Below the pieces are notes generated by a model. It did no database searches. It was given only the letters and a program-made list of their open reading frames with translations, and had not been told where the DNA came from. DNA of 64,000 nt. Source: Pseudomonas sp. BN417. GTDB lineage: Bacteria > Pseudomonadota > Gammaproteobacteria > Pseudomonadales > Pseudomonadaceae. Position 1 is the first letter of the stretch, and the number at the start of each line of letters is the position of its first letter. Below are positions 27,278 through 32,709 of the stretch, piece after piece. The stretch lies in NCBI RefSeq assembly GCF_029871205.1, contig NZ_SSOJ01000067.1, positions 108,693-172,692 of the forward strand. Reading direction: 5' to 3'. Both the position numbers and the translations under genes were made by a program.

Positions 27278-27365
27278 TAGGGTGAGCCGTGCGCACCAGG
27301 CTGGGTGATGGCCTACCCGTTGACCCGACCCGAGCACAGGAAACGGTGCGCATGGCGCACCCTAC
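27278..27365. repeat. Palindromic repeat, GTAGGGTGMGCC family, copy 1
   Basis: Arms at 27278-27298 and 27345-27365 (outer GTAGGGTG / CACCCTAC) are inverted complements with two mismatches. A second copy of the same family is at 28711-28774. The two copies bracket the small SOS operon and the endonuclease gene. Confidence 0.75.
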
Positions 27366-27389
27366 GAGCAGCCATTCAGGCATCCAGAC

Positions 27390-27701
27390 TCAAGCGCTCT
27401 CGACCTCCCGCGAATCCACGTAATCCTTCAGCCACCTCAACACCTGTACCGGCTCCCAGCGGGCCGGGTCGAACAGGGCATAGGCCTGGCCCTGATAGCC
27501 CACCACGTCCAGTTGCCGGTGATAGCCGGCGCGCTGGAACAGGGCCTCTATTTCCGCCAGGCAGGTGTTGAAATGCAGACGCCCGAAGGGCGTCTTGCCG
27601 TCGGTCACCAGGCCTTCCAGGTGCAATTCTTCCACCGCTTCGCGGATCTCTTCCGGGGCCATCCGGCTCACGGTGTATTTCAACTGGCGTACATCCAGCA
27701 T
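27390..27701 (-). CDS. Unknown 103-residue protein in a LexA-controlled operon
   Basis: The family is not recognised. The start at 27701 (MLDVRQLKYTV) was chosen because GAGGA lies 8 nt upstream; the longer frame overlaps the preceding small gene. Composition suggests a soluble alpha/beta protein. Helix-rich RMAPEEIREAVEELHLEGLV is followed by a conserved-looking KTPFGRLHFNTCLAEIEALF, then VVGYQGQAYALFDPARWEPVQVLRWLKDYV. There is no signal peptide or membrane segment. It is the second gene behind a LexA box, so a DNA-damage role is inferred. It could correspond to one of the unnamed small SOS genes of P. aeruginosa; this was not checked. Confidence 0.75.
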   Translation of the reverse strand: MLDVRQLKYTVSRMAPEEIREAVEELHLEGLVTDGKTPFGRLHFNTCLAEIEALFQRAGYHRQLDVVGYQGQAYALFDPARWEPVQVLRWLKDYVDSREVESA

Positions 27702-27721
27702 CTTGGGTGTCCTCAGGCGGC

Positions 27722-27862
27722 TCAGTGCAGCCACCGGCTGGCGAACAGGGGCTGTACCTGGCCACGGGGCGGGAAGGGCAGGGGCAGTTGGTAGGGTACG
27801 GGGATTGTCGATGGAACAGGTTGCTCAGGCATCGGCAAGCGGATCGGGGCTGATACAGGCAT
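27722..27862 (-). CDS. 46-residue proline-rich protein with clamp-binding-like motifs, first gene after a LexA box
   Basis: This short frame lies directly downstream of a LexA box, with AGGAAAAG before its ATG at 27862 and 20 bp between its TGA and the next gene. The product has 13 prolines in 46 residues and is likely unstructured. Residues 25-30, QLPLPF, resemble hexapeptide beta-clamp-binding motifs such as that of Hda (QLSLPL). Residues 35-40, QVQPLF, followed by ASR, resemble the clamp-binding element of E. coli HolA (QAMSLF, also followed by ASR). Two such elements in so small a protein suggest a sliding-clamp ligand made during the SOS response. That it is a real gene, and its function, are inference; chance in a Pro/Leu-rich frame is possible. 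Confidence 0.55.
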   Translation of the reverse strand: MPVSAPIRLPMPEQPVPSTIPVPYQLPLPFPPRGQVQPLFASRWLH

Positions 27863-27880
27863 AGGACTTTTCCTGGATTA

Positions 27881-27896
27881 CTGTATATTTATACAG
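27881..27896. promoter_or_regulatory. LexA box (SOS operator) 1
   Basis: CTGTATATTTATACAG matches the gammaproteobacterial LexA consensus CTG-N10-CAG and the preferred CTGTATATATATACAG at all but one position. It is 19 bp upstream of the minus-strand 46-residue gene and about 93 bp upstream of the plus-strand endonuclease gene. It could control either or both. Confidence 0.9.
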
Positions 27897-27989
27897 ATAC
27901 CAGTTGCCGTGGTCCGATGGCAACCAAACCAAAGGAAAAATCTGTTGTCAGTCATTTCCCCTGACGCAGTATCGGGAATGAGAAGTCTG

Positions 27990-28679
27990 ATGATCCGCTC
28001 TATCTTGCTGTTTTGCCTGTTGTTCTCCGCCGTAACCGAAGCCGCCGCCCCCCGCACTTTCAACGAGGCCAAGAAGGTCGCCTGGAAGCTCTATGCCACC
28101 CACCCGGTGGAGTTCTATTGCGGCTGCCGCTACGAGGGCAACCGGGTGGACCTGAAAAGTTGCGGCTATGTGCCGAGGAAGGCGCCGCAGAGGGCCAAGC
28201 GCATCGAGTGGGAGCACATAGTGCCGGCCTGGGTGATCGGCCATCAGCGCCAGTGCTGGCAGAAGGGCGGGCGCAAGAACTGCACCGAGAACGACCCCAC
28301 CTACCAGCGCGCCGAAGCCGATCTGCACAACCTGGTGCCTAGCATCGGCGAGGTGAACGGCGACCGCAGCAATTACAGCTTCGCCTGGCTGCCGCAAAAG
28401 CCCAGCCAGTACGGCGCCTGTCCCATGGTGGTGGACTTCAAGGCGCGAAAGGCCATGCCGCGCCAGCAGATCCGCGGGATGATCGCGCGCACCTACTTCT
28501 ACATGAGCGACCGTTACAACCTGCGTATCTCCAGCCAGGACCGCAAGCTCTACAACGCCTGGAACCGCCAGTACCCGGTGGAAGCCTGGGAGCGCAACCG
28601 CAACCAGCGCGTGGCCTGCGTGATGGGCTATGGCAATCCCTTCGTGGGCAAGGTGGATATGGGCGCCTGCCGGCGCTAG
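27990..28679 (+). CDS. endA: Endonuclease I (periplasmic/extracellular DNase)
   Basis: The 229-residue protein belongs to the EndA/Dns/Vvn family of non-specific nucleases. An N-terminal signal peptide (MIRSILLFCLLFSAVTEAAA) indicates export. The beta-beta-alpha metal catalytic segment is visible: RIEWEHIVPAWVIG with the catalytic histidine, then ADLHNLVPSIGEVNGDRSNYSF with the metal-binding asparagine. Cysteines in YCGCRYEG, KSCGY, QCW, NCTEN and VACVMGY would form disulfides. The ATG at 27990 gives the best signal peptide; 27978 is an alternative. It diverges from the LexA-controlled small operon, so damage induction is possible but unproven. Confidence 0.9.
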   Translation: MIRSILLFCLLFSAVTEAAAPRTFNEAKKVAWKLYATHPVEFYCGCRYEGNRVDLKSCGYVPRKAPQRAKRIEWEHIVPAWVIGHQRQCWQKGGRKNCTENDPTYQRAEADLHNLVPSIGEVNGDRSNYSFAWLPQKPSQYGACPMVVDFKARKAMPRQQIRGMIARTYFYMSDRYNLRISSQDRKLYNAWNRQYPVEAWERNRNQRVACVMGYGNPFVGKVDMGACRR

Positions 28680-28710: not shown

Positions 28711-28774
28711 GTAGGGTGCGCCGTGCGCACAGGTGAGCCGGCACGGGGTGTCCGGTGCGCGCAGCGTACCCTAC
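28711..28774. repeat. Palindromic repeat, GTAGGGTGMGCC family, copy 2
   Basis: Left arm GTAGGGTGCGCCGTGCGCAC (28711-28730) and right arm at 28754-28774 ending CCCTAC are inverted complements with a few mismatches. The right end contains the TAG stop codon of the helicase gene on the minus strand, preceded by a CCG codon, just as in the repeat at the end of tctA. Confidence 0.75.
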
Positions 28775-31032
28775 GGAAAAGCGCGTGGCTTCTCCATGGA
28801 CCACCAGCTTGGCAGCAGCCGTTTCACCTCCGGCCGGGCGAAGCGGTCGTCGATCAGGTACACCACGCCCTGGTCTTCAGTCGTACGGATCACCCGCCCG
28901 GCGGCCTGCACCACCTTCTGCAGGCCTGGATAGAGATAGGCGTAGTCGTACCCAGCGCCGAACAGGCTGGCCATGCGCTGTCTGAGCTGTTCGTTCACCG
29001 GGTTCAGTTGTGGCAGGCCGAGGGTGGCGATGAAGGCGCCGATCAGGCGTTCGCCCGGCAGGTCGATGCCTTCGCCGAAAGCCCCACCGAGCACGGCGAA
29101 GCCTATGCCCTGTCCGCCGGCGTCGAAGCGCTGGATGAAGGCCTGGCGCTCGGCTTCGTTCATTTGCCGCGCCTGCAGCCAGATGGGCACTTGCGGCTGC
29201 TCGCGGGCGAACAGGGCGGCCACCTGCTGCAGGTAGTCGTAGCTGCTGAAGAAGGCCAGGTAGTTGCCGGGGCGCTCGCCGAACTGCCGGGCCATCAACT
29301 CGGCTATGGGCGCGAGGGAGCTGGCGCGGTGCTGGTAGCGGGTGGATACCTCGGCGGCAACGCGCACCTGCAGTTGCCCTGCATTGAAGGGCGAGTCCAC
29401 TTCCAGCCAGGGCGTATTGCGCGCCAGCCCCAGCAGGTCGCTGTAGTAGTGGCGCGGGTTGAGGGTGGCGGAGAAGAGCACGGTGGAGCGGCTGGCGGCG
29501 AAGCGCGGCTCGAGGAAGGGCGCCGGCACCAGGTTGCGCAGGCACAGGCGCGACAGGTCGCGGCCACCCTTGCCTGGGCGCTTGCTGAGGTCGAACAGCG
29601 AATGGCTGTCGAACTGTTCGGTCATGCGAACGAACTGCATGGCTTCGAAATAGAAGTCCTGCAGGGCGTTGTCCCGCGCCGTGGGGTTGTCGGTGAGGTA
29701 GTCGGTGATGGCGGTGACCGCCCCCTGCAGGGCATTCAGCAGTTTCTGCGGTGGTTCGGCGTAGGCGCAGTAGTCCTCCGCCTGCGCCTTGTTCAGTTCG
29801 CTCCAGCTGCGGCCGACCCGCTCCAGGGGCTTTTTCAGTACGGCCGGCGCCGTCTTGCGCAGGGTCTTGAGGCTCAGTTGGTCGAGCTCGGCTGAATACA
29901 TCTTGCGCGCCCGGTCCACCAGGTTGTGCGCTTCGTCCACCAGCACCGACACGCGCCACTGGTTGGCGCTGGCCAGGCCAAAGAGCAGGGCGCTGGTGTC
30001 GAAGTAGTAGTTGTAGTCACCCACTACCAGGTCGCTCCAGCGCGCCATTTCCTGGGCCAGGTAATAGGGGCAGACCTGATGGGCGAGGGCGACCTCGCGC
30101 AGGGTCTCGCGATCCAGCCAGCGCCGCTGCGCAGCCGCCTCGCGCGCCGCAGGCAGACGGTCGTAGAAGCCCCGGGCCAGGGGGCAGGATTCGCCATGGC
30201 AGGCGTTTTCCGGGTGCTCGCAGGCCTTGTCGCGGGCTACCAGCTCCAGTACGCGCAGGGGTTCTGCGCGAATCTGGCGCAAGGCGTCGAGGGCCAACTG
30301 GCGGCCAGGTGTCTTGGCGGCGAGGAAGAACACCTTGTCCAGGGCCTGGCGCTGGAAGGCCTTGAGCAGTGGGAACAGGGTGCCGAGGGTCTTGCCGATG
30401 CCGGTGGGGGCCTGAGCCATGAGGCAGCAGCCGGTGCTCACCGCCTTGTACACGGCTTCGGCGAGCTGACGCTGCCCGTGGCGGAACCCCGCATGGGGAA
30501 AGGTCAGGGTTTCCAGCGCGGCATTGCGTGCGCCAACATGGGCAAGCTCCTGCTCCGCCCAGGCGATGAAGCGCTGGCACTGCTCCTCGAAGAAAGCTCG
30601 CAAGTCGCCGGCCCTATGGCGCTCGGTGAGCAGGGTTTCCTTCTGGCTGCCGATATCGAAATACACCAGCGCCAGTTCGATCTCTGGCAGCGATTGCTGT
30701 TGGCAGAGCAGCCAGCCATAGACCTTGAGCTGAGCCCAATGCAACTGCCGATGGTTGGCCGGCATGCGCTGGAGGTCGCCGCGGTAGGTCTTCACCTCCT
30801 CGAGGCGGCCACGCGCCGGGTCGTAGCCATCGGCGCGACCGCGTACCCGCAGGGGACCGAACTCGCCGCTGAGGGCCAGTTCGGCCTGGTAGCCCTCGCC
30901 TCGGCGGCTGGCCACCAGGGCATGACCGGCCATGCCTTCCTGGGCGGTGGGGGCGGGCGTGAAGCGCAGGTCGAGGTCGCCGCATTTCGCAGTGAACTCG
31001 CAGAGCGCACGCACGGCCACGCTGTAGGCCAT
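28771..31032 (-). CDS. DinG/XPD-like Fe-S helicase with N-terminal PD-(D/E)XK-like nuclease domain
   Basis: The 753-residue protein combines two modules. Residues about 1-170 look like a PD-(D/E)XK nuclease of the Cas4/AddB type (GRADGYD followed by LEEVKTYRGD). The rest is a superfamily 2 helicase with Walker A APTGIGKT, an Fe-S cysteine set in KACEHPENACHGESCPLA plus VCPYY, DEAH in LVDEAHNLVD, GGAFGEGIDLPGERL (motif V) and QAAGRVIRT (motif VI). This suggests a 5'-3' helicase for branched or damaged DNA. Its start is 2 bp after the FAN1 stop, so both share the upstream LexA box. The stop codon lies in a repeat. Confidence 0.9.
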   Translation of the reverse strand: MAYSVAVRALCEFTAKCGDLDLRFTPAPTAQEGMAGHALVASRRGEGYQAELALSGEFGPLRVRGRADGYDPARGRLEEVKTYRGDLQRMPANHRQLHWAQLKVYGWLLCQQQSLPEIELALVYFDIGSQKETLLTERHRAGDLRAFFEEQCQRFIAWAEQELAHVGARNAALETLTFPHAGFRHGQRQLAEAVYKAVSTGCCLMAQAPTGIGKTLGTLFPLLKAFQRQALDKVFFLAAKTPGRQLALDALRQIRAEPLRVLELVARDKACEHPENACHGESCPLARGFYDRLPAAREAAAQRRWLDRETLREVALAHQVCPYYLAQEMARWSDLVVGDYNYYFDTSALLFGLASANQWRVSVLVDEAHNLVDRARKMYSAELDQLSLKTLRKTAPAVLKKPLERVGRSWSELNKAQAEDYCAYAEPPQKLLNALQGAVTAITDYLTDNPTARDNALQDFYFEAMQFVRMTEQFDSHSLFDLSKRPGKGGRDLSRLCLRNLVPAPFLEPRFAASRSTVLFSATLNPRHYYSDLLGLARNTPWLEVDSPFNAGQLQVRVAAEVSTRYQHRASSLAPIAELMARQFGERPGNYLAFFSSYDYLQQVAALFAREQPQVPIWLQARQMNEAERQAFIQRFDAGGQGIGFAVLGGAFGEGIDLPGERLIGAFIATLGLPQLNPVNEQLRQRMASLFGAGYDYAYLYPGLQKVVQAAGRVIRTTEDQGVVYLIDDRFARPEVKRLLPSWWSMEKPRAFP

Positions 31033-31034
31033 GG

Positions 31035-32666
31035 TCAGTCCTCCGCCCACTGCACGTAGCAGACGTCCACGGGGATCTCGTGGCGGGCGCAGAATTCCAG
31101 CCACCGTAACTGGTTGTCCTGCAGGCGGTCGCCGGGGCCCTTCACCTCGATCAGGCGGTAGCGGCGCTCTTCTGGCCAGAACTGGATCAGGTCGGGCAAC
31201 CCGGCGCGATTGGCCTTGATATCGGCCAGGATGCGCTGAAAGCAGGCCTTGAGGTGCGCAGCCGGCAGGCACGCCAGGGCCTGGTCCAGGAGCGCTTCAT
31301 CCAGGTTGCCCCAGTAGACGAAAGGCGAGAGCAGACCCCGCTTGGTGGCATAGGTGCGGCGGATATTGGCCTGGTATTCGTCGCTGTCCAGTTGCGCCAG
31401 GCAGGCGGCGAAGCGTTCGGCGCGGCGCGAATGGAAGTCCGGGCTGAGCAGGTCAGCCGGGCCGTTGTGGAAGGGATGGAAGAAGGCGCCGGGCACCGCA
31501 GCGAAGATGGCGTCCCAGCAGAGGAGGCCGAACAGGGAGTTGAGCAGGGTGTTCTCCACGTAGTGCACCGGCGCGCTTTCCTCAACGAAGTGCAGCAGCA
31601 CGGCGTGCTCCACCGATAGCGGCTCCGGCGGTTGCGGCAGGACCAGGTCGAGTCGGCGTACCGGCGCGCTGCCGGCGGGTGACTCCTTGGGCAGGCCCAG
31701 CTTGCGCCGCAGGCGCGGCAGGATGCGCGCCAGATGCTGCTGTTCCTCCTCGCTCTCGGGGGTCTCCCAGGCCTCCTGCGCCAAGCCGAAGGCCTCGTCA
31801 TGGGCGCCGAGGCGCTCCAGTACACGAATGCGCCGTACCCGTGCGCCCAGGTATTCGCAGAGACTGTAGAGGCTCAGCGCCGCATCCAGCAGTGCGCTGC
31901 GCTCGCAGTGCTGGGCGACCTGGAACAGCAGCTTGCGCCGGCGTGCGTCCAGCCAGGGGTTGTCGTGGGGTTTCAGGGGCAGTTCGCTCAGCAACTCGTC
32001 CAGTGCTTCGCCCGCCTCGAAGCGCTCCCGCCAGCGGTGCAGGCGCAGGTAGTACTCCAGGTCGGCACGCTCGCGGAAGCCCCGCGCGGAAGCGTCGATC
32101 TCGACCTTCTCATACTGGTAGATGCCGAGGTCGGAGAGCACGAACTCGGACCAGTCCTGGTAGAGGTTGCCGAAGAACATCAGCCGCAAGCGGTCGCAGA
32201 TGTCCATCAGTTCGAGCGCAAAGATGCGGTCCTGGCTGGCCGGATACCAGGCAGCGAAAGAACGCGGTTCAGGGTGTTCGGCGAGCAGGGCGCCCAGGCG
32301 CTCGGCCTTGCGCCCCGGTGCCTTGCCGAAACAGGCATCCACCTCGGCCAGGGTGAGCAGGCCGAAGAGTTGCGTGAGGTCCAGGTGGGGCGCCGCGTCG
32401 ACCCATCCCAAGTCCACCAGCGGCGCCACCGCGTCGAGGGTGTCGCCGATCTCGGCATAGCTCAGCTTGCTGGCGCGGAAGCGTGTGCCCTTGCGCATCA
32501 CCATGCGCACCAGCAGCGCCTGGGAGGCGCGGGGCAGGGCACGGAAGCCTTCGATGAAGGCTTGCTCCTCGGCAGTCAGCAGATCGCTGTAACGCTCGCT
32601 GATCCAGTCGAGCAGGGTGTGGAAGTTGTTCAGGTAGTAGAAGGGATCTTCGAGGGCGGCGGGCAT
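31035..32666 (-). CDS. FAN1-type VRR-NUC structure-specific nuclease
   Basis: The 543-residue protein matches bacterial FAN1. A long helical SAP/TPR-like N-terminal and middle region (YYLNNFHTLLDWI at the start, DLTQLFGLL, QVAQHCERSALLDAAL) is followed by a C-terminal VRR-NUC domain. The PD-(D/E)XK catalytic residues appear in GLPDLIQFW and YRLIEVKGPGDRLQDNQLRWLEF. FAN1 cuts 5' flaps and helps remove interstrand crosslinks; a P. aeruginosa FAN1 has been studied structurally. It is the first gene after LexA box 2 and is translationally linked to the helicase gene. Confidence 0.93.
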   Translation of the reverse strand: MPAALEDPFYYLNNFHTLLDWISERYSDLLTAEEQAFIEGFRALPRASQALLVRMVMRKGTRFRASKLSYAEIGDTLDAVAPLVDLGWVDAAPHLDLTQLFGLLTLAEVDACFGKAPGRKAERLGALLAEHPEPRSFAAWYPASQDRIFALELMDICDRLRLMFFGNLYQDWSEFVLSDLGIYQYEKVEIDASARGFRERADLEYYLRLHRWRERFEAGEALDELLSELPLKPHDNPWLDARRRKLLFQVAQHCERSALLDAALSLYSLCEYLGARVRRIRVLERLGAHDEAFGLAQEAWETPESEEEQQHLARILPRLRRKLGLPKESPAGSAPVRRLDLVLPQPPEPLSVEHAVLLHFVEESAPVHYVENTLLNSLFGLLCWDAIFAAVPGAFFHPFHNGPADLLSPDFHSRRAERFAACLAQLDSDEYQANIRRTYATKRGLLSPFVYWGNLDEALLDQALACLPAAHLKACFQRILADIKANRAGLPDLIQFWPEERRYRLIEVKGPGDRLQDNQLRWLEFCARHEIPVDVCYVQWAED

Positions 32667-32693: not shown

Positions 32694-32709
32694 CTGTGGA
32701 TTTATACAG
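32694..32709 (-). promoter_or_regulatory. LexA box (SOS operator) 2
   Basis: CTGTGGATTTATACAG fits CTG-N10-CAG, with flanks (TTA before, ATAT after) nearly identical to LexA box 1. It ends 27 bp before the FAN1 start codon, the usual position for LexA to block a promoter. Confidence 0.85.

Follow-up and report, generated by a model that had tools for sequence, protein, structure and literature searches.

We describe a 46-residue microprotein gene of Pseudomonas sp. BN417 that is preceded by a LexA box and whose product is predicted to dock to the sliding clamp DnaN, because its longest unchanging stretch matches a published clamp-binding motif. In the reading we prefer, and consider moderately probable, the microprotein is likely induced by the SOS response, probably lacks structure and carries a single predicted clamp ligand, with which it would occupy the cleft of DnaN; an adaptor variant of this role is counted in. 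A more specific version falls somewhat short of an even chance: a free-standing, host-encoded, SOS-induced clamp ligand, in which a disordered 46-mer would flood DnaN clefts, acting as a brake on replication or a switch for polymerase exchange, and would have arisen recently within a single Pseudomonas lineage, ahead of an SOS gene of greater age. The original prediction envisaged a LexA-controlled small protein with two clamp ligands; of this, a small protein with one clamp-like hexapeptide, preceded by a LexA box, stands, and the second ligand does not. Table 1 locates the features within the 64,000-nucleotide stretch of DNA that was analyzed (hereafter, the window).

Table 1. Positions of the microprotein gene, its parts and its neighbors in the window
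Feature	Position	Strand	Basis or remark
46-aa microprotein gene	27722-27862	-	frame, relatives, dN/dS
AGGA, likely ribosome binding site of the microprotein	27871-27874	-	sequence; 8 nt before ATG
Residues 1-17, second conserved block (MPVSAPIRLPMPEQPVP)	27812-27862	-	11/17 residues invariant, 14 species
Residues 23-32, invariant PYQLPLPFPP	27767-27796	-	0/10 residues vary, 10/10 codons vary
Residues 25-30, QLPLPF, predicted clamp-binding motif	27773-27790	-	published class, invariance, shuffles
Residues 35-40, QVQPLF, second motif of the original prediction	27743-27760	-	not conserved
LexA box CTGTATATTTATACAG	27881-27896	.	0 mismatches to searched pattern
Uncharacterized 103-aa gene	27390-27701	-	ATG 20 nt 3′ of microprotein stop
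endA-like endonuclease I gene	27990-28679	+	Pfam PF04231; far side of LexA box
DinG/XPD-type helicase gene	28771-31272		Pfam
VRR-NUC/FAN1-like gene	31035-32666		Pfam

A near-consensus LexA box had been proposed 19 bp before the frame. The box is there and fits the searched pattern without a mismatch, and the gap measures 18 nt, the distance from the end of the box to the start codon in 14/14 same-genus relatives. The palindrome is identical in 13 of these 14 and starts with GTGT in one (locus L005). When two mismatches are allowed, the window contains four box matches, a count that 6 of 100 shuffles reach and that is not significant by itself. Genome-wide, CTGTATNNNNATACAG with at most one mismatch occurs at eight sites in BN417 versus none for the reversed control, and by this comparison the LexA box is beyond chance; four of the eight sites are perfect palindromes, the microprotein box among them. 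Flanks translated at five of the seven other sites and read by eye gave imuA, an RNR-beta-like gene, a radical-SAM gene, recA and lexA. The microprotein gene is thus preceded by a box whose place is conserved, as expected of a LexA regulon member, and from this we infer SOS induction. The RNR-beta-like frame has its perfect palindrome at locus L064, 48 nt upstream (box centre to ATG), and is a possible SOS target of this genome in its own right. A short inverted repeat, GTTGCC...GGCAAC (27902-27923), also stands immediately upstream of this LexA box, on its microprotein side, and is mostly retained in the 14 relatives by eye. A simple promoter and terminator scan of 27350-28020 found neither, and no sigma-70-like promoter.

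Full-length microprotein was found by tblastn in 14 of 18 same-genus genomes (own genome counted); the remaining 39 genomes of the 57-genome sample gave 0. The named relatives with it include P. resinovorans DSM 21078, P. boanensis, P. taiwanensis xwS3 and Metapseudomonas furukawaii. The good ribosome binding site attributed to the 46-codon frame is present (Table 1), and its GGA is retained in the 14 relatives by eye. Openness of the frame says little alone, because in most of the 14 the remaining two forward frames likewise run through this DNA without a stop codon. The pattern of substitution says more: the length is 46 residues in 14/14, dN/dS summed across the 91 pairs of sequences is 0.20, and variable sites fall at codon positions 1, 2 and 3 in the ratio 16/16/35. 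The frame is beyond chance on the last two counts and departs from the synonymous/nonsynonymous pattern of non-coding DNA, which had been named as the outcome that would speak against the prediction. Judged from these alignments, the microprotein frame is confirmed as a real gene under purifying selection. That it is instead leader DNA open by chance is very improbable: such a view could draw on the open neighboring frames, on the missing microprotein outside the genus among 398 family genomes and on one same-genus pair lacking the motif in which dN is not below dS (see below), but it has to contend with the constant 46 codons, the third-position excess, the low dN/dS and ten consecutive codons that vary synonymously only.

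Wider searches point to a narrow distribution. A profile search of 5.8 billion proteins returned five clusters, each of 46 aa and each containing YQLPLPFPP. In the 398 family genomes, the profile matched 14 times with an E value of 2.1e-23 or lower, and no match beyond those was better than E 0.001. Five weaker matches over residues 25/26-44 were opened, and we attribute them to chance because all five were out-of-frame readings of the end of an enolase gene. Phages and plasmids searched for relatives gave no match; among viral contigs, 32 stretches fit the pattern, none of them encoding a relative of the microprotein. Pfam, NCBIfam and PHROGs had nothing for the 46-aa protein. By these sequence comparisons, the microprotein is lineage-limited and strongly constrained. 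It is probably without structure: AlphaFold2, run from the 14 sequences, predicts no secondary structure and a pTM of 0.15, yet a mean pLDDT of 74.

The core of the argument is the stretch PYQLPLPFPP, the longest invariant run in the 14 species, in which every codon varies synonymously. Outside the core, 19 of 36 residues vary; a further 12 differ in codon only, and 5 are fixed in the DNA too. The contrast between core and rest gives p 0.003 by Fisher's test and p 0.04 by run length, both post hoc since the stretch was picked after inspection. Within the core, the predicted likeness of QLPLPF at residues 25-30 to the Hda hexapeptide held up: the sequence fits the clamp-motif form Q-phi-x-[L/M]-x-[F/L] in its best version, QLxLxF, and is kept in 14/14 orthologues, being absent in four further same-genus species. 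Shuffling the microprotein's own letters produces the strict pattern QLxL(x)[FL] in 0.8% of cases and the loose pattern Q[LIVMA]x[LM](x)[FLI] in 4.9%; in the real protein, position 25 alone fits either. As background, 2 strict and 10 loose matches occur in the 18,033 aa of the window's 46 proxy proteins. Invariant, and reached by so few shuffles under the strict pattern, the first motif appears to be beyond chance.

Each position of QLPLPF has a precedent. One survey of clamp motifs (PMC11139829) ranks QLxLF and QLxLxF as the highest-affinity classes, reports a slight advantage of Phe over Leu at the final residue and gives 0.38 uM for clamp binding by Hda's PAQLSLPLYL. The hexapeptide has been written elsewhere as QL[SP]LPL (PMC3836487), and QLPLWG is given as the clamp motif of mycobacterial ImuB (PMC10421592). 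In the BN417 genome itself, the N-terminus of Hda reads MTPIQLPLSVRL and the C-terminus of Pol IV EQLTLF. Other observations weigh against the clamp reading. Flanks of known clamp motifs are described as mostly acidic (PMC11139829), whereas QLPLPF is flanked by Pro/Tyr and, in 13/14, by Arg. The HdaA motif of Caulobacter is reported to be insufficient to localize YFP to the clamp (PMC3836487), and a Pro-rich composition makes PLP-type strings easy to obtain. The motif is, moreover, confined to 14 species.

In a rival account, PYQLPLPFPP is a proline-rich ligand of another protein (e.g., another SOS factor or the product of the 103-aa gene), and it resembles a clamp motif by chance. The invariant run of ten residues is longer than a hexapeptide and contains Pro and Tyr that the clamp motif does not need, and a Pro-rich protein produces the loose motif at the shuffle rate given above. 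However, the core fits the strict published class and not the loose one alone, other clamp ligands offer a precedent for each of its two Pro positions, and at the 17 loci examined in other genera the 103-aa gene stands without the microprotein. We regard this account as unlikely, though it deserves more weight than the other alternatives considered here.

The second motif fared differently. QVQPLF is at residues 35-40 and ASR directly after it at residues 41-43, as had been described, but its reading as a HolA-like clamp ligand fails. Across the 14 species the six residues read QVQPLF, QVQPLL, EVQPLL, RAQPLF, RVQPLS, QVRPLI or QLRPLL, varying at four positions (35, 36, 37 and 40), and the QVQPLF of the window does not fit even the loose pattern Q[LIVMA]x[LM](x)[FLI]. 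On this comparison, the second motif is no better than chance, and since it both drifts and misses the loose pattern, the two-ligand layout falls. Of the conservation to be looked for by tblastn, then, the frame and the first motif are kept and the second motif is not.

The four remaining same-genus species (L029-L032) have an open frame of 54-56 aa that begins M..SAP..LPKP and lacks QLPLPF. Their LexA box starts ATGT (by eye), and in the one pair of these frames compared, dN is 0.092 and dS 0.080. With an altered box and a dN that is not below dS, the protein therefore appears to be constrained only where the LexA box is intact, and the four species could possibly represent a natural series of loss, or a state before gain.

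The microprotein gene sits between the LexA box and the 103-aa gene, which is likely on the same transcript. Spacing between the two genes is 16-21 nt in 14/14, and the 103-aa gene has its own GAGGA. It is present in 221 of the 398 family genomes. Outside the genus we considered 17 loci (12 computed, 5 read by eye): all 17 have a CTGT-N8-ACAG box directly 5′ of the 103-aa gene, and no microprotein-like small protein was found at any of them. In the 12 computed loci the leader is 79-106 nt, and none of its frames of at least 12 codons has even a loose clamp motif. Given these loci, the 103-aa family is likely a widespread uncharacterized SOS gene of Pseudomonas. A possible identity of the gene in the window with PA0922 of P. 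aeruginosa was considered. In the accounts we drew on, PA0922 is placed in the LexA regulon, divergent from dinB (PMC8944484), and is listed as a hypothetical protein (PMC1250226, PMC12431658). A tblastn search with the BN417 DinB, run without a positive control on loci mostly of 2-3 kb, found nothing in L015, L029-L050, the window or L070-L074.

This arrangement raises a further alternative, namely that the frame encodes a leader peptide whose Pro-rich core (with PP) stalls or couples ribosomes during translation and so tunes the 103-aa gene. A short frame directly 5′ of that gene at the spacing given above is what one would look for, and an arrest peptide would likewise be expected to be conserved at the amino-acid level. 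Yet the downstream gene carries its own GAGGA and follows its box without such a peptide outside the genus; moreover, among the 14 residues after the core, P38, L39, A41, R43 and H46 are still invariant. We therefore judge a leader peptide improbable.

On the far side of the LexA box, the endA-like gene lies across from the microprotein in 14/14 and is arranged in the same way in 4/4 same-genus loci lacking the motif. Further along there is a LexA-like box with one mismatch (32694-32709, minus strand) before the VRR-NUC/FAN1-like and helicase genes, so that endA and these repair genes form a short cluster with a LexA-type box at either end. Both repair genes, and the box at the start of the first, are within 6 kb in 5/6 named relatives; in L046, a search with exact peptide words found neither repair gene within 6 kb.

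Bacteria remodel replication after DNA damage mostly through polymerases that carry their own clamp ligand, and small LexA-controlled products such as SulA and SidA pause the cell cycle. SulA and SidA act on division, whereas the microprotein is predicted to act on the clamp. A clamp ligand in a DNA-damage protein, as predicted here, also occurs in the SOS-induced clamp users Pol IV (DinB, ending in QLTLF in the BN417 genome) and mycobacterial ImuB (QLPLWG); there it tethers a large protein to the clamp, while that of the microprotein would stand almost alone. The N-terminal clamp hexapeptide of Hda/HdaA (QLSLPL, QFKLPL) is nearly identical to QLPLPF, but Hda has an AAA+ domain acting on DnaA, and the microprotein has a LexA box and no predicted folded domain. 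By site of action it can be likened to SocB (Caulobacter) and RipA (S. pneumoniae), which act at the clamp cleft it is predicted to occupy. Both belong to toxin-antitoxin systems; the gene adjacent to the microprotein, the one candidate antitoxin considered, occurs without it in 17/17 outside-genus loci. SocB is reported to block replication elongation at this cleft (PMC9690074, PMC12795458). If it binds the clamp, the microprotein would be a variant among small clamp-binding proteins such as SocB. The string "QLPLPF" was not found in the open-licence literature, and we recognized there no small SOS clamp protein matching this one, judging from titles and the starts of abstracts.

In the mechanism we propose for a clamp ligand, DNA damage would trigger the LexA-box switch and the microprotein would be made; QLPLPF would then occupy the DnaN cleft in competition with other clamp ligands. 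The outcome we favor would be that the replication fork is braked, or handed over, for as long as the damage persists. An adaptor role would be a close variant, and there is room for it because residues 1-17 form a second conserved block that may add another contact.

One peptide, one target and one motif mutant would suffice for a direct test of the clamp reading. If it is true, a near-bare clamp ligand under LexA control would amount to a minimal replication checkpoint. Its logic would resemble that of p21, a PCNA-binding inhibitor, and it would have a natural counterpart in peptide antibiotics directed at the clamp. The gene would also be young, and its one motif could be traced along a species tree.
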